Part shown: piece by piece, positions 15,538-31,129 of the stretch
Layout: each line of letters starts with the position of its first letter
How positions within the stretch are numbered: position 1 is the first letter of the stretch
From: a virus
Virus record (IMG/VR): IMGVR_UViG_3300012988_000028
Location: 1 to 35,058 of that record
DNA length: 35,058 nt
Reading direction: 5' to 3' (one strand)
The notes under the pieces: model-generated
Database searches by the model: none
What the model was told of the DNA's origin: nothing
What the model saw: the letters and a program-made list of their open reading frames with translations, nothing else
Made by a program: the position numbers and the translations under genes

Positions 15538-16788
15538 ATGGCGAAGGCAGCAAAAGCTGCCGCGACCGACGTCTCTGAGGTGAAGTCAAAGAAGGGAATG
15601 GCGGACGAGATCGATGAGCTCACCGCCAATCTCATCAAAGACATCAACAAGGAGTTCGGCCAGCGGGTGGCGTATAACCTAGGCGAGACTGAAGCTCCTA
15701 CTGTTGTCAAACGATGGCTTGACACCGGATCGATCCAACTGAACTACGCCATCCGTAACGCCGCTGGAGGTGGGTATCCTGAAGGAAGGATCATTGAGAT
15801 CGCCGGTCCTCCGTCGATCGGTAAGTCACACCTTGGCTACCACGCTGCTGCTGTCACCCAGTCCATGGGTGGCATCGTCATCTACATCGACACCGAGAAC
15901 GCGACACCCATCCAGAAGCTCGGGCAGATGGGCATCAACGTCAAGAAGGGTTTCGTTTACATGGACATCCATGCGACGGAGCACGTCTTCAAGGCCATCG
16001 AGGACACCATCCTCAAGGCAAAGGGGTTGATGAAGGATGTTCCGATTCTCGTCATCTGGGACAGCGTCGCCGCGACATCTCCACTCGCTGAACTGAACGG
16101 AGAGTACGAAGACAACACGGTGGGTCTTCAGGCTCGTGTCATCAGCAAGGGCATGCGTAAGATCACTGGTGTCATTGGCCAGAACAACGTGACGTTGTTG
16201 TGCTTGAACCAACTGCGTGATGCCATCGGCGTCATGCACGGTGACCCACAGGTGACGCCAGGTGGAAAAGCCATCCCGTTCCATGCCTCAGTTCGCATCC
16301 GGCTCAGCTCGGGTACCCAGATCAAGGACGCCAAAGGCAACATCATCGGCATCCACGTCATCATGACGTTGAAGAAGAACAAGGTTGCACCACCTTTCAG
16401 GAAGTACGAGTTTGACATCATCTTCGGCAAGGGGATCGTCGAACACGAGTATGTCTTTGACGAGTGTAGGGCGTACTGCGCAGACAAGGACAACAAGGTA
16501 CTCGCTGATTACGAACATGCCAAGGATGGCAAGCGACAGGTCCAGATCGTGATCGCAGGCACGTCAGCCTGGAAAGAGCTGACGGTGACTGACACCCAGA
16601 CCGGTGAGGTCTTCGTCGAGAAGAAGTTTTATAAGGGCGACTTTGACAAGATCATGCGTGACCCTGAGTACAAACCCTTCGTTGACAAGGTCATCGATGC
16701 TGCATACACCATGGTGATGGGCGAGGCAGCGTCTGAAGGCGAGACGCCTGACAACGACGCTGAGGACGAGGTGGCGACCGATGGCTGA
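15538..16788 (+). CDS. recA: RecA-like recombinase
   Basis: This 416-residue protein is a strand-exchange ATPase. Walker A is GPPSIGKS (residues 90-97). The YIDTENATP segment carries the catalytic glutamate. Walker B is ILVIWDSVAA. The DNA-binding L2 side reads NQLRDAIGVMHGDPQVTPGG followed by HASVRIRL. These are closer to bacterial RecA than to T4 UvsX in wording, though the role is the same: recombination-dependent replication and repair with the gp32-like protein. A strong AAGGAG ribosome site precedes the ATG. The last eight bases overlap the dUTPase gene. Acidic residues end the protein, as in RecA. Confidence 0.92.
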   Translation: MAKAAKAAATDVSEVKSKKGMADEIDELTANLIKDINKEFGQRVAYNLGETEAPTVVKRWLDTGSIQLNYAIRNAAGGGYPEGRIIEIAGPPSIGKSHLGYHAAAVTQSMGGIVIYIDTENATPIQKLGQMGINVKKGFVYMDIHATEHVFKAIEDTILKAKGLMKDVPILVIWDSVAATSPLAELNGEYEDNTVGLQARVISKGMRKITGVIGQNNVTLLCLNQLRDAIGVMHGDPQVTPGGKAIPFHASVRIRLSSGTQIKDAKGNIIGIHVIMTLKKNKVAPPFRKYEFDIIFGKGIVEHEYVFDECRAYCADKDNKVLADYEHAKDGKRQVQIVIAGTSAWKELTVTDTQTGEVFVEKKFYKGDFDKIMRDPEYKPFVDKVIDAAYTMVMGEAASEGETPDNDAEDEVATDG

Positions 16789-17218
16789 GGTCATCGTCTT
16801 CATCAAGAAAGCTAACGTTGACGTGCCGACACCTGCCTACAAGACGGCAGGCGCGGCCGGGTGTGACGTGACATCGACAGAAACCCTGACAATACGACCG
16901 GGGTGTCGCCAATTCGTCAACACGGGACTTTTTCTGGAGGTCCCAGAAGGGTACGAGTGTCAGGTCAGGCCCAGGTCTGGGCTAGCGCTCAACTACGGCG
17001 TCATCGTCCTAAACTCTCCTGGAACGATCGACAGCGACTATCGAGGTGAGATAAAGATCCTCCTCTACAACACGGGAATCAAGGACTTCGTCGTCCAGCC
17101 AGGCGAGCGCATCGCCCAATTGGTGTTCGCTCCTGTCACGCAGGTAACCTTCGAAGAGATCGAAGAGCTGTCAGAAACAGATCGCGGTTCGGGTGGGTGG
17201 GGATCGACCGGGAGATAA
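16781..17218 (+). CDS. dut: dUTP diphosphatase (trimeric dUTPase)
   Basis: This 145-residue enzyme converts dUTP to dUMP and pyrophosphate, keeping uracil out of DNA and feeding thymidylate synthesis. All five motifs are present: AGAAGCD (23-29), PRSGLA (64-69), GTIDSDYRGE (81-90, with the catalytic aspartate D84), PGERIAQLVF (107-116) and RGSGGWGSTG (135-144). In the last motif the usual stacking Phe is Trp. Length is normal for the family. It overlaps the recombinase gene by eight bases and probably depends on its translation. Its product dUMP is the substrate of the ThyX encoded at 24635. Confidence 0.95.
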   Translation: MAEVIVFIKKANVDVPTPAYKTAGAAGCDVTSTETLTIRPGCRQFVNTGLFLEVPEGYECQVRPRSGLALNYGVIVLNSPGTIDSDYRGEIKILLYNTGIKDFVVQPGERIAQLVFAPVTQVTFEEIEELSETDRGSGGWGSTGR

Positions 17219-20135: not shown

Positions 20136-20208
20136 GTATCTGAGCTTTGCGTGACCGTTCGTGTTGGCGACTAGGCTGATTGTTGACGTGCGTTGAGAGA
20201 GCGATTTG

Positions 20209-22713
20209 ATGATGAAGTACACTTACGATGAAGTGCGTAGTGCCTCACTTGAGTATTTCAAGGGTGACAACCTAGCAGCAGAGGTCTTTGCGGGAAAGTA
20301 CGCATTACGTGACATGCAAGCGAACATATACGAGCTGACTCCTGCTGACATGCACAGGAGGCTAGCAAGAGAATTCGCTCGCATCGAAAGCAGGTACCCT
20401 AATCCGTTGTCAGAAAGTGAAATCTACGACCTTCTCGCGTCTTGGAAGGTGGTGCCACAAGGCAGCCCGATGTCTGCCGTCGGAAACCCGTACCAGTACC
20501 AGTCGTTGAGCAACTGTTTCGTCATCGAATCGCCTCAGGATTCGTACGGTGGCATCCTACGTGCCGACCAGGAACAGGCGCAAATCATGAAACGTCGCGG
20601 CGGCGTCGGTTTTGACGTGTCGACGATCAGGCCTCGTGGGTTGACGACCTCGAACGCGGCCCGAACCACTGATGGCATCGGCGTGTTCATGGAACGCTTC
20701 AGCAACACGTGTCGTGAGGTCGCCCAGGGAGGCCGACGCGGTGCATTGATGCTGACGATCTCCGTCCATCACCCTGAGATCAGGACGTTCATCAACATCA
20801 AGCGTGACCTGAAGAAGGTGACGGGAGCGAACATCTCCATCAGGCTCTCTGATGAGTTCATGAACGCTGTCAAGAACCAGACGAAGGTACAGCTCAGGTT
20901 TCCGGTCGAGAAAGACGTCGAGCACATCATTGAGAACGACGTCAATGCAGTCGAGCTCTGGAACGAGATCATCGAAGCAGCACACTTTGCGGCCGAGCCA
21001 GGGTTGCTGTTCTGGGACACGGTGTCGAGGATGGGACCCGCTGACGCGTACAAGGACGCTGGCTACGGCTCGACATCGACGAACCCGTGTGGTGAGATCA
21101 CCTTGTCTCCGTACGACAGCTGCCGCCTGTTGTTGGTCAACCTGTACGCCTTCGTCAAGAGACCGTTTGAAGCAGACGCATCGTTCGATTACGATGACTT
21201 TCGTGACACCGTCTACAAGGCACAGAAGCTGATGGACGACCTGGTCGACCTTGAGCTCGAGGCCGTCGACGCGATCATCCAAAAGATCGAGAATGACCCA
21301 GAGTCTGATGAGGTCAAGCGAATCGAGCTACAACTCTGGAGCAAGATCAAGAAGGCCGCCACGGGAGGGCGTAGGACGGGCTTGGGTATTACCGCCCTGG
21401 GCGATGCGTTAGCAGCAATCAACGTCCAGTACGGATCGTTAACCTCTGTTTCTGAAACAGAATCGATCTACAGGACACAAGCGCTCGCAGCGTATCGTTC
21501 GACCGTTGACATGGCTCGCGATCGTTCACCCTTTCCAGTCTTTTCACATGACACCGAGAGAGGTCACCCGTTCATCGAGCGCATCATGAACGAGGACTCG
21601 AAACTCAGAGCAGACTACGAGTGCTACGGCCGGCGTAACATCGCGTTGACGACCACGGCGCCCGCAGGCTCAGTGTCGATCTTGACCCAGACGACGTCAG
21701 GCTGTGAGCCTGCGTTCATGCTGTTTTACAAACGTCGCCGCAAGATCACTGCTGCTGATGCTGACGCTCGTGTCGATTTCACTGATGACATGGGCGACAA
21801 GTGGCAGGAGTACACGATCTACCACCACGCGTTCAAGAAGTGGATGGAGGTCACTGGTCTGACTGAAAACGACGTCACGAAGTCACCTTACGCTGGTGCG
21901 ACCAGCAATGACATTAACTGGGTGAGAAAGATTGACGTCCAGGCCGCAGCACAAAGGTGGATCTGTCACAGCATCTCGAACACGACCAACATCCCAAACT
22001 CGACGTCGGTTGACGTCGTTAAGCAGATCTACATGCACGGTTGGGAGACCGGGTGCAAGGGCGTGACCATCTATCGTGACGGTTCACGTGCAGGTGTGTT
22101 GGTCAATGAGACCAAGGATAAGACGAGCGAGGTCGACAAGTCTGGGCAACCGCTGGTCATCTCAGAGACACACGCTCCGAAACGTCCGAAGGAGCTACCG
22201 TGTGACATTCACAGGACAACTGTCAAGGGTGAGACGTACCTGGTCCTCGTCGGACTTCACAACGATAAACCTTATGAGATCTTTTGTGGCCTGCAGGAAC
22301 ACGTCGAGGTTCCTAAAAAGATCAAGCACGGCACGCTCATCAAGAATGGCAAGGTCAATGGCATTGCCACGTACAACCTCAAGATCCCGTTGGGAGACGA
22401 CGACGAGCTGGTGTTTAAGAACGTCGTCGAGCTGTTCGATAACCCGATCTACGGAGCCCTGACGCGGACCATCTCGTTGACGTTGCGCCACGGTGTGCCG
22501 TTGCAGTACCTGATCGAACAGCTTCGCAAGGACAAGCACAGCGACATTATGTCGTTCAGCGCTTGCATCGCTCGGGTCCTCAGCAAGCACTACATCCCAG
22601 ATGGCACCAAGGTCACGACAGAGAAATCGTGTGCAGAGTGCGGAGGCGCCAACCTACACTACATCCAGGGTTGCGTGACGTGCTTTGACTGCGGCAACAG
22701 CAAGTGTGGGTGA
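20209..22713 (+). CDS. nrdJ: Adenosylcobalamin-dependent (class II) ribonucleotide reductase
   Basis: This 834-residue enzyme reduces ribonucleotides to deoxyribonucleotides using a B12-generated radical. The active site reads NPCGE (292-296). N292, radical Cys C294 and E296 form the catalytic triad, C305 lies eleven residues later, and SNCF holds C103, the two redox cysteines of the family. The phosphate-loop region TTAPAGSVSILTQT is present. The C-terminus carries CAECGG...CVTCFDCGNSKCG, a cysteine-rich tail that regenerates the active site or binds zinc. It is monomeric-type with no separate small subunit. ATG 20209 has GAGAGAG upstream; ATG 20212 is also possible. No cobalamin riboswitch fits in the 73-base leader. 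Confidence 0.95.
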   Translation: MMKYTYDEVRSASLEYFKGDNLAAEVFAGKYALRDMQANIYELTPADMHRRLAREFARIESRYPNPLSESEIYDLLASWKVVPQGSPMSAVGNPYQYQSLSNCFVIESPQDSYGGILRADQEQAQIMKRRGGVGFDVSTIRPRGLTTSNAARTTDGIGVFMERFSNTCREVAQGGRRGALMLTISVHHPEIRTFINIKRDLKKVTGANISIRLSDEFMNAVKNQTKVQLRFPVEKDVEHIIENDVNAVELWNEIIEAAHFAAEPGLLFWDTVSRMGPADAYKDAGYGSTSTNPCGEITLSPYDSCRLLLVNLYAFVKRPFEADASFDYDDFRDTVYKAQKLMDDLVDLELEAVDAIIQKIENDPESDEVKRIELQLWSKIKKAATGGRRTGLGITALGDALAAINVQYGSLTSVSETESIYRTQALAAYRSTVDMARDRSPFPVFSHDTERGHPFIERIMNEDSKLRADYECYGRRNIALTTTAPAGSVSILTQTTSGCEPAFMLFYKRRRKITAADADARVDFTDDMGDKWQEYTIYHHAFKKWMEVTGLTENDVTKSPYAGATSNDINWVRKIDVQAAAQRWICHSISNTTNIPNSTSVDVVKQIYMHGWETGCKGVTIYRDGSRAGVLVNETKDKTSEVDKSGQPLVISETHAPKRPKELPCDIHRTTVKGETYLVLVGLHNDKPYEIFCGLQEHVEVPKKIKHGTLIKNGKVNGIATYNLKIPLGDDDELVFKNVVELFDNPIYGALTRTISLTLRHGVPLQYLIEQLRKDKHSDIMSFSACIARVLSKHYIPDGTKVTTEKSCAECGGANLHYIQGCVTCFDCGNSKCG

Positions 22714-22743: not shown

Positions 22744-23166
22744 ATGAAGAAACAAGTCGTCAAGCTAAGCCAAACCTCGCTCCGCCGCCTGATCAGCGAG
22801 GCGATCGAAACTCGTCAACCTGGCTCTCCGCTGTTCACGCCTCCGAGAGACAAGAAACTCTCTGAGCGTTTTGGTTCGTGGGATCGAGACATGAATCTAG
22901 ATGCTGGAGGCGAAGAAGGCGATGATCTTGGCATGGGCATGATGCCTCATAACTTTGAGGCAGCTGCAAAGGAAACGTTTTCGATCGTGCTTGACAAGGT
23001 CGCTGAAGCCTTCGTTGACACTCACATGGACATAATCGAGGCAGGTTTTTCACCTGAGACGCAAGATGCCTACCGTGAGCAGCTGATGGAAAAGGCTCTC
23101 AAACTCAAGCAAGCGATGATGGGTCTGATCGAAAAGTACAGCGACGAGTTTTCTGAGGAGCTGTGA
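22744..23166 (+). CDS. Small protein with N-terminal LRRLISEA helix
   Basis: This 140-residue protein is of unknown function. The first 25 residues hold a basic amphipathic helix (SLRRLISEAIE) similar in pattern to those at 14269 and 23170. A Gly/Asp-rich link (GGEEGDDLGMGMM) follows. The rest is helical and acidic, with no cysteines or membrane segments. It lies directly before the related-looking gene at 23170, three bases apart, so the two are probably co-expressed. A virion or nucleoid role is possible; nothing in the sequence proves it. Confidence 0.55.
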   Translation: MKKQVVKLSQTSLRRLISEAIETRQPGSPLFTPPRDKKLSERFGSWDRDMNLDAGGEEGDDLGMGMMPHNFEAAAKETFSIVLDKVAEAFVDTHMDIIEAGFSPETQDAYREQLMEKALKLKQAMMGLIEKYSDEFSEEL

Positions 23167-23169
23167 TTC

Positions 23170-23436
23170 ATGAAGGTCCGCGTCGGCGATCTTAGGAAGG
23201 CGATCCGCGAAGAATACCTTCGAGGCGTGCCGGAGTTCGTCCTGCGACAGGCCACGACGAAGTACGTTGACGAGATCCGCCAACAGATCTTTCGGTTCAT
23301 CATGATGAACAAGTCACAGACGCCTGCTGACCAACGCGAGGCACAGGCCGCTGCGAACCAAGTGCTCGAGGACCTTGAAACGAAAGCGAACGACCTGCTC
23401 GAAGATTGTCTTTACCAATTCATACGTCAAGTGTAG
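23170..23436 (+). CDS. Small helical protein with N-terminal LRKAIREEY motif
   Basis: This 88-residue all-helical protein of unknown function begins MKVRVGDLRKAIREEYLRGV. This is a variant of the N-terminal LRR.I.E helix shared with the genes at 14269 and 22744. A glutamine-rich and leucine-rich helix (AAANQVLEDLETKANDLLED) fills the second half. I have seen similar small proteins in other large phages, where they are also uncharacterised. It is co-directional with, and three bases after, the previous gene. Confidence 0.55.
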   Translation: MKVRVGDLRKAIREEYLRGVPEFVLRQATTKYVDEIRQQIFRFIMMNKSQTPADQREAQAAANQVLEDLETKANDLLEDCLYQFIRQV

Positions 23437-23449
23437 TACCGTCTCTCAA

Positions 23450-23740
23450 ATGGAGACAGAACACTTTGATTGCCAGCGTGGCAGTCTAGATCACGCTGTT
23501 AGGTTTACGCTTGACTTTAATGACGGCAACGTTCGCTTAGACATTCGCCTCAATCGACAATTACCTTGGCACAAACGAGCCTGGCAAGGGTTGAAATACA
23601 TCTTGGGAGCCAATGTCAGCCATGTCGTGCTCTTGCACGATGACGACTACAACCAGTTACGGAACATGCTCACCAGGTCTGAGATCGCAAAGGTGGGTTA
23701 CCTTTCACGAGCACGTGAACAGAGGCGCGAAGGTTATTAG
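23450..23740 (+). CDS. Small conserved phage protein with aromatic W/Y core
   Basis: This protein has 96 residues from ATG 23450. The recognisable part is LNRQLPWHKRAWQGLKYILG, a WKR...W..IKYI.G pattern that I have seen in a widespread family of short phage proteins of unknown function. The N-terminus is acidic and beta-like (HAVRFTLDFNDGNVRLDI). I prefer this start over an upstream one at 23375, which would lie inside the previous gene. TACCGT lies seven bases before the ATG and no ribosome site is seen. Confidence 0.55.
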   Translation: METEHFDCQRGSLDHAVRFTLDFNDGNVRLDIRLNRQLPWHKRAWQGLKYILGANVSHVVLLHDDDYNQLRNMLTRSEIAKVGYLSRAREQRREGY

Positions 23741-23783
23741 AATGACCTGAGTTAAATCTTAGATCGTAAGTCGAGGTTACCCA

Positions 23784-24632
23784 TTGGCTACTGCAATACC
23801 TGTTTTTTACACTCCCAAGATGGTTGCTGACTCAAGAAGCCTCTCGCCCAGCGCTGCAAAACCTGCGAAGGTCGTTGAGTCTTGGCAACGACAGTTTTTG
23901 ATCGACGTGCACGAACCCGTTCCTGTGACGGTTGATGAGCTATCTCAAGCTCATGACCGCGATTTTATCGAAGGGGTGTTATCGTGTCAGCGTAGCAACG
24001 GGTTTGGTAACAAGTCGCCTGAGGTCGCTGCGTCGTTGCTTTACACCTCAGGTGCCATGCTCACCGGCGCGCGACACGCGTTGCAAACAAAAACGGTTGC
24101 TGTGGCGCCCGTGTCGGGTTTTCACCATGCTGAATGGGCGACGTCAATGGGATTTTGCACCTTCAACGGACTGATGGTGACTGCGCTGGCCTTGAAGGCT
24201 GACGGTTGTAAGAGGGTCGGTATTCTTGACCTCGACATGCATTACGGTAACGGCACTGATGACATCATCAATCGGTTCAAGATCGATTGGATCGCACACT
24301 TTTCGGGCGGAGCATCCTTCACCGAGCCTCGCCAGGTGACACAGTTTTTCAATCTCCTTCCTGAGATCATGAAAGTGATGTCCAACTGTGATGTTGTACT
24401 GTACCAAGCTGGCGCCGATCCGCACGTTAACGATCCTTACGGGGGTTGGTTGACGACAGACGAGTTACGTCGCCGCGACGGAGTTGTCTTTGATGCCCTG
24501 AAAGCGGCAGGTACACCGGTCGTTTGGAACCTCGCGGGAGGCTATCAAACTGAACCCGACGGTTCGATTCCGAAGGTCCTTGAGATCCATGATAACACCA
24601 TGCGCGAGTGCGTTCGCGTTTACGGAGCATGA
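23784..24632 (+). CDS. Histone-deacetylase-fold amidohydrolase
   Basis: This 282-residue protein is a predicted zinc-dependent deacetylase of the HDAC / acetylpolyamine amidohydrolase family. All key residues are visible: GFHHA (H114, H115), LDMH (D151, H153), AGADPHVND (D212) and LAGGY (Y254). The zinc site and charge-relay pairs are therefore intact, and the enzyme should be active. Targets could be acetyl-lysine on host or phage proteins, or acetylated polyamines that bind packaged DNA. The sequence does not decide. It starts at TTG 23784 with a GAGG ribosome site. Its stop overlaps the possible ATG 24629 of thyX. HDAC-fold enzymes are unusual companions for phage thymidylate genes. Confidence 0.85.
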   Translation: MATAIPVFYTPKMVADSRSLSPSAAKPAKVVESWQRQFLIDVHEPVPVTVDELSQAHDRDFIEGVLSCQRSNGFGNKSPEVAASLLYTSGAMLTGARHALQTKTVAVAPVSGFHHAEWATSMGFCTFNGLMVTALALKADGCKRVGILDLDMHYGNGTDDIINRFKIDWIAHFSGGASFTEPRQVTQFFNLLPEIMKVMSNCDVVLYQAGADPHVNDPYGGWLTTDELRRRDGVVFDALKAAGTPVVWNLAGGYQTEPDGSIPKVLEIHDNTMRECVRVYGA

Positions 24633-24634
24633 AA

Positions 24635-25561
24635 ATGGCGTATTCAGTAAAAATCCTAGCAGACAGCATAGCGATCAGGGGTAAACACGTCAGCCGTCTG
24701 ACGACGATGGAAGTCACGTTGCCACGAATCGTGTTGGCGGAATTCAACACCCATCGCGTGTTTTCTCGGAACAGCGCTTCGAGCCGTGCCATCCCAGTCG
24801 AGAAGCGGATCGCAGCCATTGAGCTCGATCCGTTCGAGCCCGAAGCGTTCGGCAAGAACCAGAAGGGAATGCAAGCCTCTGAGGACTTACGTTCAGACGA
24901 TGACGTCATGGCTCGAATGGCCTGGCGAAAGGCGTGCGCGGACGCAGTTTCAAGCGCAAAGGTGCTTGCCTCGTTAGGCGTTCATAAGCAACTAGCGAAT
25001 CGATTGATCGAACCTTTTTGCTGGCACACCATCATCGTGTCTAGCACTGAGTGGGACAACTATTTCGGCTTGAGATTGCACCCGGATGCACAACCTGAGA
25101 TTCGCAAGCCAACGGGCATGATGTGGGAAGAGTACCAAGCCTCGAAGCCCAAAGAACTAAAACCAGGCGAGTGGCACTTGCCCCTGTTGCAGCCGGACGA
25201 GTTTGTCTTGCCTGATGATTCGCCCGAGTGGAACGATCCGATCGGTTTTTCTTGCACTCAGTTTCGTATCGATGATGCGAAGCGTATTTCCGTCGGTCGC
25301 TGCGCTCGAGTCAGTTACCTGACACACGACGGTCGTCGAGATCCAATGGCTGACATCGAGCTAAGCGCTAGGTTACACGCTAGCGGTCACATGAGCCCGT
25401 TCGAACACGTCGCTCGGCCGCTCACCAACCAAGACATCATTGAACGAAAGCTGTCAAGGACGGCTCCGTTCGTGGGCAATTTTAGAGGTTGGTTGCAGTT
25501 TCGCAAGGAACTAGCGAACGAGGACAACTTTAAGAAAGTCCTAGACACACGGGTTCGTTGA
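24635..25561 (+). CDS. thyX: Flavin-dependent thymidylate synthase ThyX
   Basis: This 308-residue enzyme makes dTMP from dUMP using FAD and folate. The signature motif appears as THRVFSRNSAS (T39-H40-R41, then seven residues, then S49). The first Arg of the classical RHR is Thr, as I recall from other long phage ThyX proteins. A segment reads SVGRCARVSYLTHDG, and the C-terminal helix region has SGHMSPFEHVARPL. It is longer than typical bacterial ThyX (about 220-250), with an insert around residues 100-200. Start 24635 has GGAG at a good distance. ATG 24629, two codons earlier, overlaps the HDAC stop. It acts between dUTPase and the kinase at 25593. Confidence 0.9.
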   Translation: MAYSVKILADSIAIRGKHVSRLTTMEVTLPRIVLAEFNTHRVFSRNSASSRAIPVEKRIAAIELDPFEPEAFGKNQKGMQASEDLRSDDDVMARMAWRKACADAVSSAKVLASLGVHKQLANRLIEPFCWHTIIVSSTEWDNYFGLRLHPDAQPEIRKPTGMMWEEYQASKPKELKPGEWHLPLLQPDEFVLPDDSPEWNDPIGFSCTQFRIDDAKRISVGRCARVSYLTHDGRRDPMADIELSARLHASGHMSPFEHVARPLTNQDIIERKLSRTAPFVGNFRGWLQFRKELANEDNFKKVLDTRVR

Positions 25562-25592: not shown

Positions 25593-26180
25593 ATGAGACT
25601 CTTGGCAAAATTGATCGTCGTCGAGGGACCTGACAAGGTCGGCAAGCAAACGCAATCGAGGTACTTGTCCCACGTGTTGGGCCGTTACGGCGACAGGACA
25701 GCGCTTGTCGAGGTCCCGTTTAACGATCGGGTGACCTATCGCCTGATCTATCGGATGTTGAAAAATGGCCAAGCGAAAGACTATCCGAACCTGTTCCAGT
25801 TCGTTCAGTTTCTCAACAAGTTCATCTTTCAGTGGACGGTTTTGCTGTGGTTGCGCCTGACGTGTGATTTCGTCGTCCTAGACAGGTGGAAGCTCTCGGC
25901 AATCGTCTACGGCGACGCCACGGGAGTCAACCCAACGTTCAATCGCTTCCTGTATTCCATGCTGAAGAACGCGGACGACACGGTCATCCTTCACGGCTCG
26001 TCGTTCAAGCGCCAAGAAGTTGACGACGTGTATGAAAAAGACAACTCCTTGCAGGCTACTGTCAGGAGAGGTTACTATGAGTGGGCTCAGGAACACCCAG
26101 AGGACCATCACTTGATCAACAACCAAGGATCGAGAGATGAGGTCCACGCTCGTATCTTGAATGCGGTGAAATCAGCATGA
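25593..26180 (+). CDS. tmk: Thymidylate kinase-like enzyme
   Basis: This 195-residue P-loop kinase probably turns dTMP into dTDP. The P-loop is VEGPDKVGKQTQS (K18), followed by RYLSHVLGRYG and a VEVPF strand. A DRWKLSAIVYG segment matches the DR(Y/W) motif that contacts the nucleotide in thymidylate kinases. A lid-like stretch (ILHGSSFKRQEVDDVYEKD) and a C-terminal helix finish the fold. The substrate assignment rests on family resemblance plus the neighbouring thyX and dut genes; a broader dNMP kinase is possible. Its stop overlaps the next gene by four bases. Confidence 0.8.
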   Translation: MRLLAKLIVVEGPDKVGKQTQSRYLSHVLGRYGDRTALVEVPFNDRVTYRLIYRMLKNGQAKDYPNLFQFVQFLNKFIFQWTVLLWLRLTCDFVVLDRWKLSAIVYGDATGVNPTFNRFLYSMLKNADDTVILHGSSFKRQEVDDVYEKDNSLQATVRRGYYEWAQEHPEDHHLINNQGSRDEVHARILNAVKSA

Positions 26181-26782
26181 AATACCAAGTCATCGTTGCT
26201 GACCCAGCGTGGGGCTTCAATGATAACCTCAAGAAAATGAAACGCAAGGTCAAGCGAGCAGCGTCAGCACAGTACAACACGATGACACCTGCACAGGTCG
26301 CTGCGATACCAGTAGCAGACGTAGCTGACCCGATGGGATGCTTGCTAGCGCTGTGGGTGCCCTCAGTGTTGTTGCCGGTGGGCCTAGACGTCATGAAAGC
26401 ATGGGGGTTTTCGTTTAAACAAACCTTTGTCTGGGTTAAGCTAAAGAAGGACCATCGCAAAGAGGACGACTGGAACAATGGCACCCGTGTCGGGATGGGA
26501 AGGCTATTCAGGCAGTCGCATGAGATCGCCTTGATCGGCACGTCAGGAAAGTCAGTGTACCCGTGGCTCGAGGATCACTCGCAGCGCTCTGTTGCGTTTG
26601 ACCTGAACGCCGGTCACTCCATCAAGCCTGCGACCCTGCAAAAGCGCCTAGAGAAGATGTTTCCTGACACCCAACGCCTCGAGATGTTCGCTCGGCGGCA
26701 ACGATCGGGTTGGACGTGCGCAGGTGATGCGATCGACGGAAAAGACATCACGCAGACGATACAAGAGCTCTCGTTAGCATAG
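26177..26782 (+). CDS. MT-A70-family DNA adenine-N6 methyltransferase
   Basis: This 201-residue protein is a predicted S-adenosylmethionine-dependent m6A methyltransferase. The catalytic motif is DPAW (9-12), a variant of DPPW. Further marks are QYNTMT, the ALWVPSVLL strand, FVWVKLKK and the HSIKPATLQKRLEKMFP helix. The protein closes with RLEMFARRQRSGWTCAGDAI. The order matches the MT-A70 (phage and Ime4-type) group. It may mark phage DNA against host restriction. No partner restriction gene is visible, so a solitary protective or regulatory role is more likely than a restriction system. It overlaps the kinase gene by four bases. Confidence 0.85.
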   Translation: MKYQVIVADPAWGFNDNLKKMKRKVKRAASAQYNTMTPAQVAAIPVADVADPMGCLLALWVPSVLLPVGLDVMKAWGFSFKQTFVWVKLKKDHRKEDDWNNGTRVGMGRLFRQSHEIALIGTSGKSVYPWLEDHSQRSVAFDLNAGHSIKPATLQKRLEKMFPDTQRLEMFARRQRSGWTCAGDAIDGKDITQTIQELSLA

Positions 26783-26792
26783 GATATGACCC

Positions 26793-27047
26793 ATGAGTGA
26801 ATTCAAGTTTGCAGACAACGTTTCGATGCGAATGGTCCAGATCTTTCAAGAGGCGATCATGACCGGCGTCGACGGGGCGGACCTCCTGCGCCAGGTGCGT
26901 CTGGTCACCGACCCATCCGATCCGAGCGTGTTGGTCCTGTCAGACGACTACCAGCGCCAGGTCAAAGAATCGTACGAAAAGCTCGAGGCGCAGGCTCTCG
27001 AGCTCGCAGCGTCGGCCACCACCGGAAAGTTCATCACGGAGTTCTGA
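26793..27047 (+). CDS. Small conserved phage protein (VQIFQEAxxTGVD motif)
   Basis: This 84-residue protein is of unknown function. The recognisable part is MVQIFQEAIMTGVDGADLLR followed by a V-R-L-V turn. I recall this pattern from short proteins in other large phages. It is helical, without cysteines or membrane segments. TAGGAT (26780-26785) lies seven bases before the ATG, and AGGA there could also serve as a ribosome site. Its stop shares bases with the next start (TGATG). The nearness to the pyrophosphatase suggests joint expression. Confidence 0.6.
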   Translation: MSEFKFADNVSMRMVQIFQEAIMTGVDGADLLRQVRLVTDPSDPSVLVLSDDYQRQVKESYEKLEAQALELAASATTGKFITEF

Positions 27048-27430
27048 TGTTTGTCGAAAACGATGACGACAGGCTCGACTACATGTGGCAGCAGCAGCTC
27101 AGCTTCATGAAGCTGCTGCAAGAGAAGCGTGGGTTCCCGAACTTTCCCACTGACATCACCACGAAGAAAGGCCAACAGTTCCTTAAGGACATCAGGAACC
27201 ACCTGATGGAAGAGCTGTTCGAGGCGGGACAACACCTCAAGAACTCAAAATCACACCGAGCGACAGATCTGCCTGAGGTCGACCGCGAGGCGTACAAGGA
27301 AGAGCTCGTCGACGCCTTGCACCTGTACTTTGAGCTCGTCATCGCCAGCGGCGTGACGTTGGAAGAACTGTATGACGCTTACATCGCAAAGGGCGACGTC
27401 AATTTCGAGCGAATCAAAAGCGGTTACTAG
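27047..27430 (+). CDS. All-alpha NTP pyrophosphatase (MazG/dimeric dUTPase-like)
   Basis: This 127-residue protein is all-helical. The metal site reads HLMEELFEAG (E55, E56, E59) and EELVDALHL (E86, D89), the ExxE...ExxD pattern of all-alpha NTP pyrophosphatases. Such enzymes hydrolyse dUTP, dCTP or unusual NTPs, and phage versions tune nucleotide pools. The end, DAYIAKGDVNFERIKSGY, is typical of the group. The substrate cannot be read from sequence. As the window already encodes a trimeric dUTPase, this one may act on another nucleotide or on modified dNTPs. It starts at ATG 27047, overlapping the previous stop by one base. Confidence 0.75.
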   Translation: MFVENDDDRLDYMWQQQLSFMKLLQEKRGFPNFPTDITTKKGQQFLKDIRNHLMEELFEAGQHLKNSKSHRATDLPEVDREAYKEELVDALHLYFELVIASGVTLEELYDAYIAKGDVNFERIKSGY

Positions 27431-27985: not shown

Positions 27986-28678
27986 ATGGCAGCACCCTTC
28001 GTCGTCGATCCTACAAATTACGACAAGTTCGTTGCGATCCGAGACGCTGCTCACTACGTTGAGTCGTTTCTCGACCTGAACGGCATCGCGCGGGTGCGAG
28101 AGTACCTGCTCGTGCCCGATCCTTCTAAGAAACCGCCGGGAAAGAACCCATGGCACGACAACGGGTGGTACTGGAACGGCGTTCTCTTCGTGAACATCAA
28201 TAGAGCACGTCCACCCACCAAGACGCCTGGCTTTGCCTGGTCGTTCACGGGATTCAAGGCGGACATGACAGCGCCGGGGATACTAGCGCACGAGACGGGT
28301 CACCACATTCACTTCGAGATCAACAAGCGAATCGACGTCAAGCACCAACAGGTTCTCATCAACAACCTCAAGTTGATCGCCAAACACGAGCTCCCAGTGT
28401 CGGGTTACGAGCCCAATCCTTACGAAGTCATGGCAGAGATGTGCAGGCTCTTCATCCTGAACCCAAACCTCCTTCGCGTGGGTCGCCCGATACGATACGT
28501 CTTTCTCACCCAAGTCTTGAAATTGCAGCCATCACATGATGTTCCCTGGCGAGACGTTTTGCGAAACGCTCATCCCAAGATCATCTCTGCGGCAGAAAGC
28601 TGGATCAACAAATGCACTTCAACATCGAAGAACGAACAATATTTCTCGCCCGTCACGGTTCCCACGCCTACGGCCTGA
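27986..28678 (+). CDS. Putative zinc metallopeptidase (HExxH, zincin-like)
   Basis: This protein has 230 residues. The motif LAHETGHHIHF (H102, E103, H106) is the zincin signature. A probable third ligand lies in YEVMAEMCR (E147 or E151), about 45 residues later, as in many Glu-zincins. The first 100 residues include a Trp-rich segment (WHDNGWYWNGVLFVN). No signal peptide is seen, so it would act in the cytoplasm or in the virion. It may process phage or host proteins. The last 67 bases overlap the next gene in another frame, so the low-complexity tail (SPVTVPTPTA) may be a by-product of that overlap. Confidence 0.65.
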   Translation: MAAPFVVDPTNYDKFVAIRDAAHYVESFLDLNGIARVREYLLVPDPSKKPPGKNPWHDNGWYWNGVLFVNINRARPPTKTPGFAWSFTGFKADMTAPGILAHETGHHIHFEINKRIDVKHQQVLINNLKLIAKHELPVSGYEPNPYEVMAEMCRLFILNPNLLRVGRPIRYVFLTQVLKLQPSHDVPWRDVLRNAHPKIISAAESWINKCTSTSKNEQYFSPVTVPTPTA

Positions 28679-29562
28679 ACGTCGCATCCTCAGACGAGGA
28701 TTACAAGGGCGTTTGCATAAAACCCAAGGAATGCTATTTCGGCTTCCTCCAGAAATTCGAGCAGCTCGAGCACATGGGCTCGAAGAGCGATGGTATCGAC
28801 AAGGTGATCTACTCGCTTGACAAGTTCGCCTCGCTGGCGATCGATTGCAACCCGAACATCATCGAGGTCCTCCACGTCGCTGAAGAGGACGTGTTGGTCT
28901 GCACCGAGTTCGGCGAAGCATTGAGAGCCATCAAGGACGATTTCCTGTCAAAGAAGGCGAAGTTCACCTTCGCGGGTTACGCTCACTCCCAATTGAAAAG
29001 GATCAAGACCCATCGTTCGTGGTTGTTGGACCCTCCCAAGGCAGCTCCGTCGCGCTCTGACTTCCACCTGTCGGAAACGTCCAAGGTGTCAGCGTCCGAG
29101 CTCGGTGCCTTTGAGGCATCCGTCCGCGAGGGAATCGAAGTGGAATTGCCCAAGGACGTGTTGACATTGTTCACCAGGGAGAAGCAGTACCAGGCTGCGA
29201 AGGCACACTACGACCAGTATTGTAACTGGGTGAAGTCTCGCAACCCGGCTCGGGCCCAGCTCGAGGCGCAGTTCGGTTACGACACGAAGCATGGCATGCA
29301 CCTCTTGCGATTGCAGACGATGGGCGTCGAGATCCTTCGGGACGGCGTCGTCAATGTCAAGCGGACGAACGACAGAGAGAAGCTGCTTTCAGTCCGACAC
29401 GGCCAGGTCAGCTACGACCAACTCGTTGAGGAAGCAGAGGCCCTTGAGGCCCAGAGCGAGGAACTCTACAAGACCTCGACCTTGCGCAAGGAAGCTGACA
29501 GGAAAAAGGTCGACGCAATCATCATTGACCTGACCGAACGTTTTCTCAGGAAACACGGCTGA
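28612..29562 (+). CDS. RlaP-type nucleotidyltransferase (DNA polymerase beta superfamily)
   Basis: This 316-residue protein carries the nucleotidyltransferase signature GSHAYGLNVASSDEDYKG: the GS pair (16-17) and the metal-binding D28-x-D30. This fits the family PF10127 (RlaP), linked by earlier genomic work to RNA repair. A helical C-terminal half ends in a coiled-coil-like stretch (EEAEALEAQSEELYKTSTLR). The predicted reaction is transfer of a nucleotide, probably to an RNA end; the substrate is not proven. The presence of polynucleotide kinase (30122) and RNA ligase (34622) nearby supports a role in RNA repair. The start ATG lies inside the end of the metallopeptidase gene. Confidence 0.72.
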   Translation: MHFNIEERTIFLARHGSHAYGLNVASSDEDYKGVCIKPKECYFGFLQKFEQLEHMGSKSDGIDKVIYSLDKFASLAIDCNPNIIEVLHVAEEDVLVCTEFGEALRAIKDDFLSKKAKFTFAGYAHSQLKRIKTHRSWLLDPPKAAPSRSDFHLSETSKVSASELGAFEASVREGIEVELPKDVLTLFTREKQYQAAKAHYDQYCNWVKSRNPARAQLEAQFGYDTKHGMHLLRLQTMGVEILRDGVVNVKRTNDREKLLSVRHGQVSYDQLVEEAEALEAQSEELYKTSTLRKEADRKKVDAIIIDLTERFLRKHG

Positions 29563-29563
29563 A

Positions 29564-29585
29564 CGGGTGGGTGAAAACCCACCCG
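29564..29585 (+). terminator. Strong GNRA-tetraloop hairpin just after the nucleotidyltransferase gene
   Basis: CGGGTGGGT pairs perfectly with ACCCACCCG over nine bases around a GAAA loop. It lies one base after the stop codon. No T-run follows, so it is either a Rho-independent terminator lacking its tract, an RNA processing or stability hairpin, or a protein-binding site. Confidence 0.5.
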
Positions 29586-29606
29586 GCTTCGTGGTAAGGT
29601 GATCAA

Positions 29607-30122
29607 GTGTCCAACATGGAAATCTGCCCAGGGTGTCAGCATCCAATGCAAGAGCATCGCGCTGAAGGTCATGTCACCTTTTATAAGTGCTGGCATCGAA
29701 ACAGCATGGAGAACAACGACTTCTGTGGGTGCACTCATGGGAGACCTGAGCCGCCAAGCTTCACGTTCTATGCGGTCGTTAACGACCCGGATCTGACCAT
29801 CGCGCATTGGTACTGCACCTACTCCCAACGAAAGAACTCAGGTTGGGTCAAAGACTTCAAGGACGCAAAGATCTGGACCCGACCCGGCCCAGCGCAGGGC
29901 AAGTGCACCAACCTCGGTGTTGGAGCGTTCTTGGTCAAGTTCGCTGCTGGTCATGTCGAGGTCATCGACCAACGCGCTCGTTTAGAGCGAGTCGCTGCTG
30001 AAAAACGTAACAAAGAGATGCTGCGTCTCCAAAACGCAGAACAACGACGCATCATCGAGGCCGAAAGAGCCCTCAAGACAGCCCAAGAAAACCTCGCTAG
30101 ACTCAAAAAAGGTAACCAATAA
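29607..30122 (+). CDS. Zinc-ribbon-like plus coiled-coil protein
   Basis: This protein has 171 residues. The N-terminus has CPGCQHPMQEH and later CWHRN...CGC, enough cysteine and histidine for one or two zinc sites. A globular, aromatic middle follows (WYCTYSQRKNSGWVKDFKD). The last 50 residues are a heptad-rich coiled coil (ERVAAEKRNKEMLRLQNAEQ). It may bind nucleic acid or hold partners together. The family is not recognised. GTG 29607 follows AAGGTGA; ATG 29616 is an alternative. Its stop overlaps the kinase start by one base, so the two products may function together. Confidence 0.55.
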   Translation: MSNMEICPGCQHPMQEHRAEGHVTFYKCWHRNSMENNDFCGCTHGRPEPPSFTFYAVVNDPDLTIAHWYCTYSQRKNSGWVKDFKDAKIWTRPGPAQGKCTNLGVGAFLVKFAAGHVEVIDQRARLERVAAEKRNKEMLRLQNAEQRRIIEAERALKTAQENLARLKKGNQ

Positions 30123-31129
30123 TGCGCACTCTGATGATTTTCAAGGGCCTTCCGGGGTCAGGCAAGTCCACGCTGGCAGCGGAGTTGGTCCGCAAGGAGC
30201 CCAATCGTTGGATTCGCGTCAACCGCGACGACCTGCGTGGGATGGTGGTGGGCCCGGGCAACAACCCACACGCTCGCAACAACGACCGCGAGGAGCTGGT
30301 CCGAGGCATGAAAGAGGCGCTGATGCGCCAGGCCTTCGACGCAGGATACGATGTCATCCTCGATGACACCCACCTGGTGCCGATGACCGTCAGGAAGCTG
30401 CACCAGGCAGCTGCTGCTTATGGCGATGTCACCGTCATCGAGAAAGGCGTCAATGTCGACATCAAGACCGCGCTCGAGCGCGACCTGAAACGTACCGGTT
30501 TCGCCCAGGTCGGTGAGAAGGTCATCAAGGACATGGCCCGAGGTGCCGGCCTCGACAAGGGAAGGAAGCTCAGTGACAAGACGTCGTACTACGAGCCTCG
30601 TCCTGACTCCTTTAAGGTCGTCGTCCAAGACGAGAGCCTGCCAAAGGCGATCATGTGTGACCTTGACGGTACTCTGGCGCTCGTCGGAGACCGCTCGCCG
30701 TACGACGCGACTGACTGTGACCTGAAAGACTCTCCGAACTGGCCCGTCATCCGCGTCGTCCTGGCGATGCACGCTCAGGGCATCAAAATCTTGTTCATGT
30801 CGGGTCGTGACATGAAGTACAGGCCTGAGACCGTTCGTTTCATTGAGAAATACTGTCGCGTCCCGGCGCAATGGGCCTTCTCACAGGAAAACGATACCCG
30901 TCCGAAAGACTTGTCCATCCCGTACGAGCTTCACATGCGAGGCGAGACGGCTCCCGATCCCGACAAGTTGGATCAACGCAAGGACAGCGTCATCAAACAG
31001 GAGTTGTTCGACAAGTACGTCGCTAATCAGTACAACGTGCTATTCGTCTTGGACGACCGAAACCAAGTCGTCGATTTCTGGCGCAGCATCGGCCTGACCT
31101 GCTTTCAAGTGGCCCCGGGTGCGTTCTAG
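30122..31129 (+). CDS. pseT: Polynucleotide 5'-kinase / 3'-phosphatase (T4 Pnkp-like)
   Basis: This 335-residue enzyme heals broken nucleic-acid ends by adding a 5' phosphate and removing a 3' phosphate. The kinase P-loop is GLPGSGKST (9-17), with the NRDD loop (34-37). The phosphatase half has CDLDGTLAL (D180, D182), FMSGRD, the RKDSVIKQELFD stretch and VLDDRNQVVDFWR. This is the T4 Pnkp domain order and length (T4 has 301 residues). In T4 it works with RNA ligase to repair host tRNA cut by anticodon nucleases. Here the ligase gene starts 3.5 kb downstream and an RlaP-type gene lies just upstream. Confidence 0.94.
   Translation: MRTLMIFKGLPGSGKSTLAAELVRKEPNRWIRVNRDDLRGMVVGPGNNPHARNNDREELVRGMKEALMRQAFDAGYDVILDDTHLVPMTVRKLHQAAAAYGDVTVIEKGVNVDIKTALERDLKRTGFAQVGEKVIKDMARGAGLDKGRKLSDKTSYYEPRPDSFKVVVQDESLPKAIMCDLDGTLALVGDRSPYDATDCDLKDSPNWPVIRVVLAMHAQGIKILFMSGRDMKYRPETVRFIEKYCRVPAQWAFSQENDTRPKDLSIPYELHMRGETAPDPDKLDQRKDSVIKQELFDKYVANQYNVLFVLDDRNQVVDFWRSIGLTCFQVAPGAF

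Follow-up and report, generated by a model that had tools for sequence, protein, structure and literature searches.

The window, as the whole analysed stretch of 35,058 nucleotides is called here, is a fragment of a virus record and derives from a large tailed dsDNA phage. Its genes include those for a tape-measure protein, Pol I, gp32, UvsX, dUTPase, FEN, DnaB and a ribonucleotide reductase (RNR), together with thyX, dTMP kinase, MT-A70, RlaP, PNKP and NT5C. A contig sharing synteny with the window (L008) is 309 kb long. On the plus strand, the RNR large subunit (20206..22713; Pfam PF02867, E=1e-82) forms the upstream anchor of a gene order conserved in L002, L003, L004 and L007. It is followed, all on the plus strand, by three small ORFs that are partly conserved according to the ORF list and synteny (22744..23740), an HDAC-fold zinc deacylase of a class IV/cluster 5-like, SPSAxKP subfamily (23784..24632), thyX, encoding a flavin-dependent thymidylate synthase (24635..25561), a thymidylate kinase (25593..26180; Pfam PF02223, E=9e-8; PHROG 761), and an MT-A70 family DNA (adenine) methyltransferase (26177..26782; Pfam PF05063, E=4e-25; PHROG 359). 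Neither PurZ nor DatZ was seen in the window, and no acyltransferase was found among its annotated genes. Elsewhere, positions 28612-31129 hold an RlaP-type nucleotidyltransferase and a Pnkp-like kinase-phosphatase, likely an RNA-repair pair, whose conserved counterparts in related phages are 59-80% identical. The window also has two genes of the dUTPase type, at 16781-17218 and 27047-27430, which belong to different families (PHROG 135; Pfam dUTPase_2).

The deacylase gene starts with TTG and encodes 282 amino acids. This start is supported by a Shine-Dalgarno-like GAGGT (23773..23777, plus strand) about 7 nt upstream and by the alignment of the TTG codon with the ATG starts of L003 and L007. 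The protein matched Pfam Hist_deacetyl (PF00850, E=3e-31). It had no match in PHROGs or NCBIfam, which agrees with the view of the initial annotation that this is not a standard phage nucleotide gene, and no PADLOC model matched it. The zinc and catalytic set was complete (H114, H115, D149, D151, H153, D212 and Y254). The residue numbering given when the enzyme was first called intact proved exact, and D149, the second dyad Asp, was also present. Thus the Asp-His-Asp zinc ligands, the double His and the catalytic Tyr of the HDAC / arginase-deacetylase superfamily were all found, as was its alpha/beta deacetylase fold over the chain. The AlphaFold (AF2) model (pLDDT 88.3, pTM 0.90) showed the HDAC fold across the whole chain, and VIA-align comparison with HDAC-fold structures gave Z-scores of 28-34 across about 270 residues. 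Judged by sequence and model, the protein is apparently an intact, predicted catalytically competent Zn2+-dependent amidohydrolase of the HDAC fold.

The thyX gene begins directly 3' of the deacylase gene. Its product matched PHROG 85 (E=6.5e-69) and Pfam Thy1 (E=5e-14), passing the curated Thy1 cut-off (52.9 bits against 24.8) and falling below the cut-off of the NCBIfam equivalog TIGR02170. The likely thyX start is ATG 24635, which has a GGAG (24624..24627, plus strand) 7 nt upstream; an alternative ATG in the same frame, at 24629, overlaps the deacylase stop as ATGA, and a GTG at 24608 is an unlikely start. The deacylase gene ends in TAC GGA GCA TGA, and the thyX GGAG is part of these codons. 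The same layout was seen in L002, L003 and L007, where the deacylase ends in TAY GGA GGN and a stop, immediately followed by the thyX ATG. Since the thyX Shine-Dalgarno sits within the last deacylase codons, and does so likewise in these relatives, the coupling of the two genes is, as read from the nucleotide sequence, translational and conserved within the window lineage. The proposed coupling to thymidylate synthase is thereby borne out. The order RNR, small ORFs, deacylase and ThyX recurred in L002, L003, L004 and L007 at protein identities of 50-74%, followed by the dTMP kinase where the contig extends that far, so the neighbourhood is not a product of chance. In L005 and L006 the deacylase gene was located elsewhere, with no ThyX nearby. 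In L115 (63% identity) a ThyA gene (PF00303, E=9e-107) comes first, and the deacylase gene begins with the very next base beyond its stop codon. With ThyX in the window and ThyA in L115, the deacylase gene therefore adjoins thymidylate synthases of two unrelated kinds.

Among solved enzymes, those closest in sequence were C. reinhardtii HDAC11-1 (9RJE) and Vibrio cholerae HdaH (9GKV). By structure, using the AF2 model, the closest were VcHdaH (Z 34.2) and L. interrogans HDAC11 (9GZ5; Z 31.6), with lower matches to class II enzymes and acetylpolyamine amidohydrolases (APAHs; Z 28-29.6). On both counts the class IV (HDAC11 / bacterial cluster 5) deacylases are the nearest kin of the window deacylase, which resembles human histone deacetylase 11 in its build and shares with class IV the fold, the catalytic set and an xGxHH motif in place of RPPGHH; cluster 5 of the bacterial deacylases was defined in PMC11532494. 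Signatures of class IV clades A and B were taken from PMC13325672, with residue equivalences assigned via profile alignments, and were mixed in the window protein. Gly73 at the Glu94 position is the clade A state, and Phe113, the foot-pocket gatekeeper before the double His, is the Phe/Tyr state of clade B, present in the window and in all 25 rows of alignment A2. SPSAxKP and Gly73 stand where clade B and HDAC11 have the HPFD L1 motif and Glu94, and SPSAxKP, Phe113 and Ser84 stand where clade A has HRFP, a Thr/Ser foot gatekeeper and the foot-pocket Arg. The segment from the zinc His to the second zinc Asp (H153-D212) comprised 59 residues in the window and 58-69 in the family, as against 75-76 in class IV (about 75 in class IV/cluster 5 generally) and at least 79 in the class I/II-like comparison sequences; a loop of about 15 residues has therefore been deleted. 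The phage family also differs from class IV/cluster 5 in its GADPHxxDPxGG and LAGGYQ signatures and in being mostly phage-borne. Because of the mixed clade signatures, SPSAxKP and the loop deletion, the window deacylase is placed as a distinct lineage near class IV with hallmarks of its own.

Several known proteins were compared with this lineage. APAHs (cluster 4), including the viral APAHs of Imitervirales, share the superfamily and the catalytic residues, but the phage protein has VSGFHH in place of RPPGHH, PYG in place of the PIS (or HDAC10 PEG) gatekeeper, and a weaker sequence match. Identity as an AcuC and as an APAH was rejected on motifs, sequence ranking and structure; for APAH, a structural similarity of Z 28-29 means that structure alone would not suffice to reject it. 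Rhodococcus phage E3, the nearest named isolate, encodes gp202 ('putative histone deacetylase'), which, like the copies in uncultured phages of 595-735 kb, is a distant member or an outlier of this group (24-39% identity); these proteins differ in their long branches and contexts and are uncharacterised. In the 595 kb phage LR756511 (L017:7947-8857), the HDAC-fold gene lies in two frames joining at one position, either a frameshift or an assembly error. Matches in Staphylococcus phages UPMK_1 and SA 1306 Kay had 24% identity and are possibly host-like deacetylases. Phage sirtuins (KVP40, T5, Vibrio phages) are likewise predicted phage-encoded deacetylases, but have an unrelated, NAD-dependent fold.

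A profile scan of IMG/VR found relatives on 187 viral contigs, from which 79 viral loci were kept, representing 64 groups at 90% identity with identities down to 34%. The HHDDHDY set was kept in 78 of 78 complete copies; the 79th was cut before the Tyr. Loss of catalytic residues in close homologues had been named as the observation that would count against an intact enzyme. All seven intact close phage copies (the window and L002-L007) retained a complete active site, and two other phage copies had decayed: L008:8001-8410 has lost its N-terminal half and carries frameshifts, and L009:4618-4989 has an in-frame loss of residues 106-259, the whole active site. A NADAR gene lies 1.5 kb upstream of the decayed copy in L009. 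Among the close copies dN was 0.19-0.31 and dS was saturated. The window lineage formed one clade (support 100/99, and 97 in a wider tree). That wider tree was dominated by phage branches, among which the bacterial copies were nested, and the proposal that the phage copies were taken from myxobacteria was withdrawn. The family is described neither in PHROGs nor in the searched open-access literature, which yielded no paper about any phage enzyme with the HDAC fold. Overall, the window gene is one member of a sizeable, overlooked, mostly phage-borne enzyme family.

The distribution of bacterial kin was patchy. Among 300 genomes of a single order, 10 had a member at E<1e-50, two of these being catalytically dead; members were also present in 10 of the 195 genomes from G004's phylum and in 2 of 369 genomes of a class sample. 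One bacterial subclade (L041, L042 and L060) has lost the catalytic residues (HL/HQ/NR for HH, SxQ, GAGH) and may have a non-enzymatic role. Given this subclade and the decayed copies of L008 and L009, the gene is dispensable in some lineages.

The contexts of the viral copies were clade-specific. The RNR/ThyX context belongs to the window lineage. PurZ, MazZ and DatZ genes were found in 15 of the 79 viral loci (phrog_1211, 1e-87; phrog_801; phrog_7076, 1e-31), with the deacylase about 150-600 bp downstream of DatZ. This pathway replaces adenine by 2-aminoadenine (diaminopurine) (PMC8342488), and the Z-phage papers retrieved from the open-access literature do not mention 'deacetylase'. The rim of the Z-cluster copies has diverged (I21, S22, K25, I26, W214, Y/F219, A/S255). 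In L154-L171 (e.g., L162:739-4834 and L170:315-4870), PurZ-MazZ-DatZ and the HDAC-fold gene are followed by an orphan gene for a 415-aa protein, the start of which overlaps the stop of the HDAC-fold gene; the protein matched no family and no phage record and was poorly modelled (pLDDT 54.6). Sixteen loci carried the deacylase downstream of tail sheath and tube genes, eight beside a CI repressor, and others with replication genes. An RNR was near the deacylase in L131 and a nucleotidyltransferase-Nudix gene in L147. An aromatic residue at rim position 219 accompanied a nucleotide context in 16 of 17 cases, a link that is not significant given the tree, with only four independent pairs, and is a lead only. 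The rule that position 219 has Leu in bacteria but an aromatic residue in phages is true of the window lineage; phages with tail and CI contexts have Leu. The suggestion in the initial annotation that the enzyme serves a DNA-modification path is favoured circumstantially by the diaminopurine clusters of the relatives, but the window itself has no PurZ, DatZ or annotated acyltransferase.

Sequence and model together demonstrate, at the level of prediction, the fold, the complete active site, purifying selection and the coupling to thyX. The best explanation, at a probability of about 0.38, is that the protein is a mainly phage-borne class IV/cluster 5 offshoot, a predicted Zn deacylase made together with ThyX and acting on a small, non-peptide, nucleotide-pathway-linked substrate. 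In HDAC-fold catalysis, a water activated by the His-His pair attacks the Zn-polarised acyl carbonyl and the Tyr stabilises the intermediate. The H114/H115-Y254-Zn site would accordingly be expected to hydrolyse the N-acyl bond of a small substrate, probably one linked to the nucleotide pool or base chemistry, and while phage DNA is being made the enzyme could release a metabolite or cofactor of the nucleotide pathway from an acyl block. A non-peptide substrate is suggested because Gly73 replaces the peptide-reading Glu: Glu94 reads the peptide backbone in class IV clade B, and clade A enzymes with Gly there show no peptide activity (PMC13325672). A link to nucleotides is possible because of the genomic contexts. 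The points counted for the best explanation were the complete active sites, the dN/dS data, the thyX Shine-Dalgarno, the ThyA abutment in L115, the Z loci, L131 and L147. Divergent LysR regulators are common for small-molecule enzymes, and the divergence of the gene from a LysR regulator in two myxobacterial copies was counted for a small-molecule substrate. Against this explanation stand the large tail and CI clades, which have no nucleotide link, the absence of ThyX near the L005 and L006 copies, and Phe113, which is of the long-chain-deacylase type and peptide-active in clade B. A more specific version is improbable as a whole. In it, a deacylase family peculiar to phages would deacylate either a compound of the nucleotide pathway or an acylated nucleotide of host origin by which phage DNA synthesis is blocked, and would be linked to ThyX/ThyA and, in a diverged branch, to Z-genome synthesis.

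Protein deacylation and counter-defence are serious rivals. As a protein lysine deacylase, the enzyme would remove acetyl groups or longer acyl chains from proteins of the host or the phage (metabolic enzymes, nucleoid proteins, RNA polymerase), the role proposed for phage sirtuins. This reading, which takes in the host-protein deacetylation suggested in the initial annotation, is possible, if doubtful. The nearest solved relatives are class IV enzymes, of which those of clade B deacylate lysine peptides, and VcHdaH has weak lysine de-decanoylase activity; the foot-pocket gatekeeper is Phe, which matches clade B, and the protein lacks the Arg of clade A. Both the use of acetylation by phages and phage-borne sirtuins are also known (PMC7824862, PMC5107563). 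The peptide-reading Glu has, however, been replaced by Gly73 and the HPFD loop by SPSAxKP, the loop deletion has removed about 15 residues, and the annotated window genes include no acyltransferase.

A role in defence conflict was raised by the bacterial copies, which in Burkholderiales-type genomes often lie in DUF2779/WYL defence-type islands. DUF2779 was single-copy and within about 5 kb of the deacylase in G001, G148 and G188, and G169 carried two DUF2779 and two deacylase copies, paired, also within about 5 kb. In G111 DUF2779 was 21.6 kb from the deacylase, and in G124 the DUF2779 genes were on other contigs. Assuming independent loci and even placement, the chance of DUF2779 within 6 kb in four of six cases is about 2e-9. 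Island neighbours comprised WYL, MzaB, WYL-SIR2, HIT, bpMoxR-VWA, cREC and type III R-M genes; in a cross-locus comparison, none of six class IV control loci had the shared DUF2779/WYL genes. WYL regulators co-localise with phage defence (PMC9122601). In G169 the two island blocks (L050/L051; G169:C1, about 1.027-1.033 Mb and 1.844-1.850 Mb) were 98% identical, each holding DUF2779, WYL, the HDAC-fold gene, a 6-fold beta-flower protein and a 5'-nucleotidase, with MzaB near the first. The enzyme could thus reverse an acyl modification or destroy an acylated immune signal, the bacterial copies being defence-island parts and the phage copies antagonists or stolen versions. Carriage of the gene in cargo sites (CI, tail) by some phage clades is consistent with this, as is the finding that deacetylation can restore acetylated Cas12a (PMC9114340). 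Such a conflict role is nonetheless rather unlikely: defence genes were not evident next to the myxobacterial copies, which are among the nearest bacterial kin, the protein matches no PADLOC model, islands gather unrelated cargo, and the window context is nucleotide metabolism.

The acetylpolyamine option of the initial annotation, taken here as an APAH that would, as in Imitervirales, supply free polyamines to phage replication or packaging, is disfavoured and very improbable, since despite the shared superfamily, the viral APAHs of giant viruses (PMC9992855) and the structural match at Z 28-29, the protein is closer to class IV/cluster 5 in sequence and structure, APAHs are weak in sequence searches, and VSGFHH and PYG replace RPPGHH and the HDAC10 PEG gatekeeper.

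Phages carry a sizeable, apparently active and essentially unannotated HDAC-fold family, intact in very different genome positions. If its members act on nucleotides or on acylated immune signals, as the preferred reading and the defence-conflict reading respectively suppose, they would represent a hitherto unknown step in host defence or in the takeover of nucleotides by phages; if they act on proteins, phages would be editing acylation without NAD. In the Z-genome clusters, the family supplies a new candidate gene, open to direct testing, next to PurZ, MazZ and DatZ.
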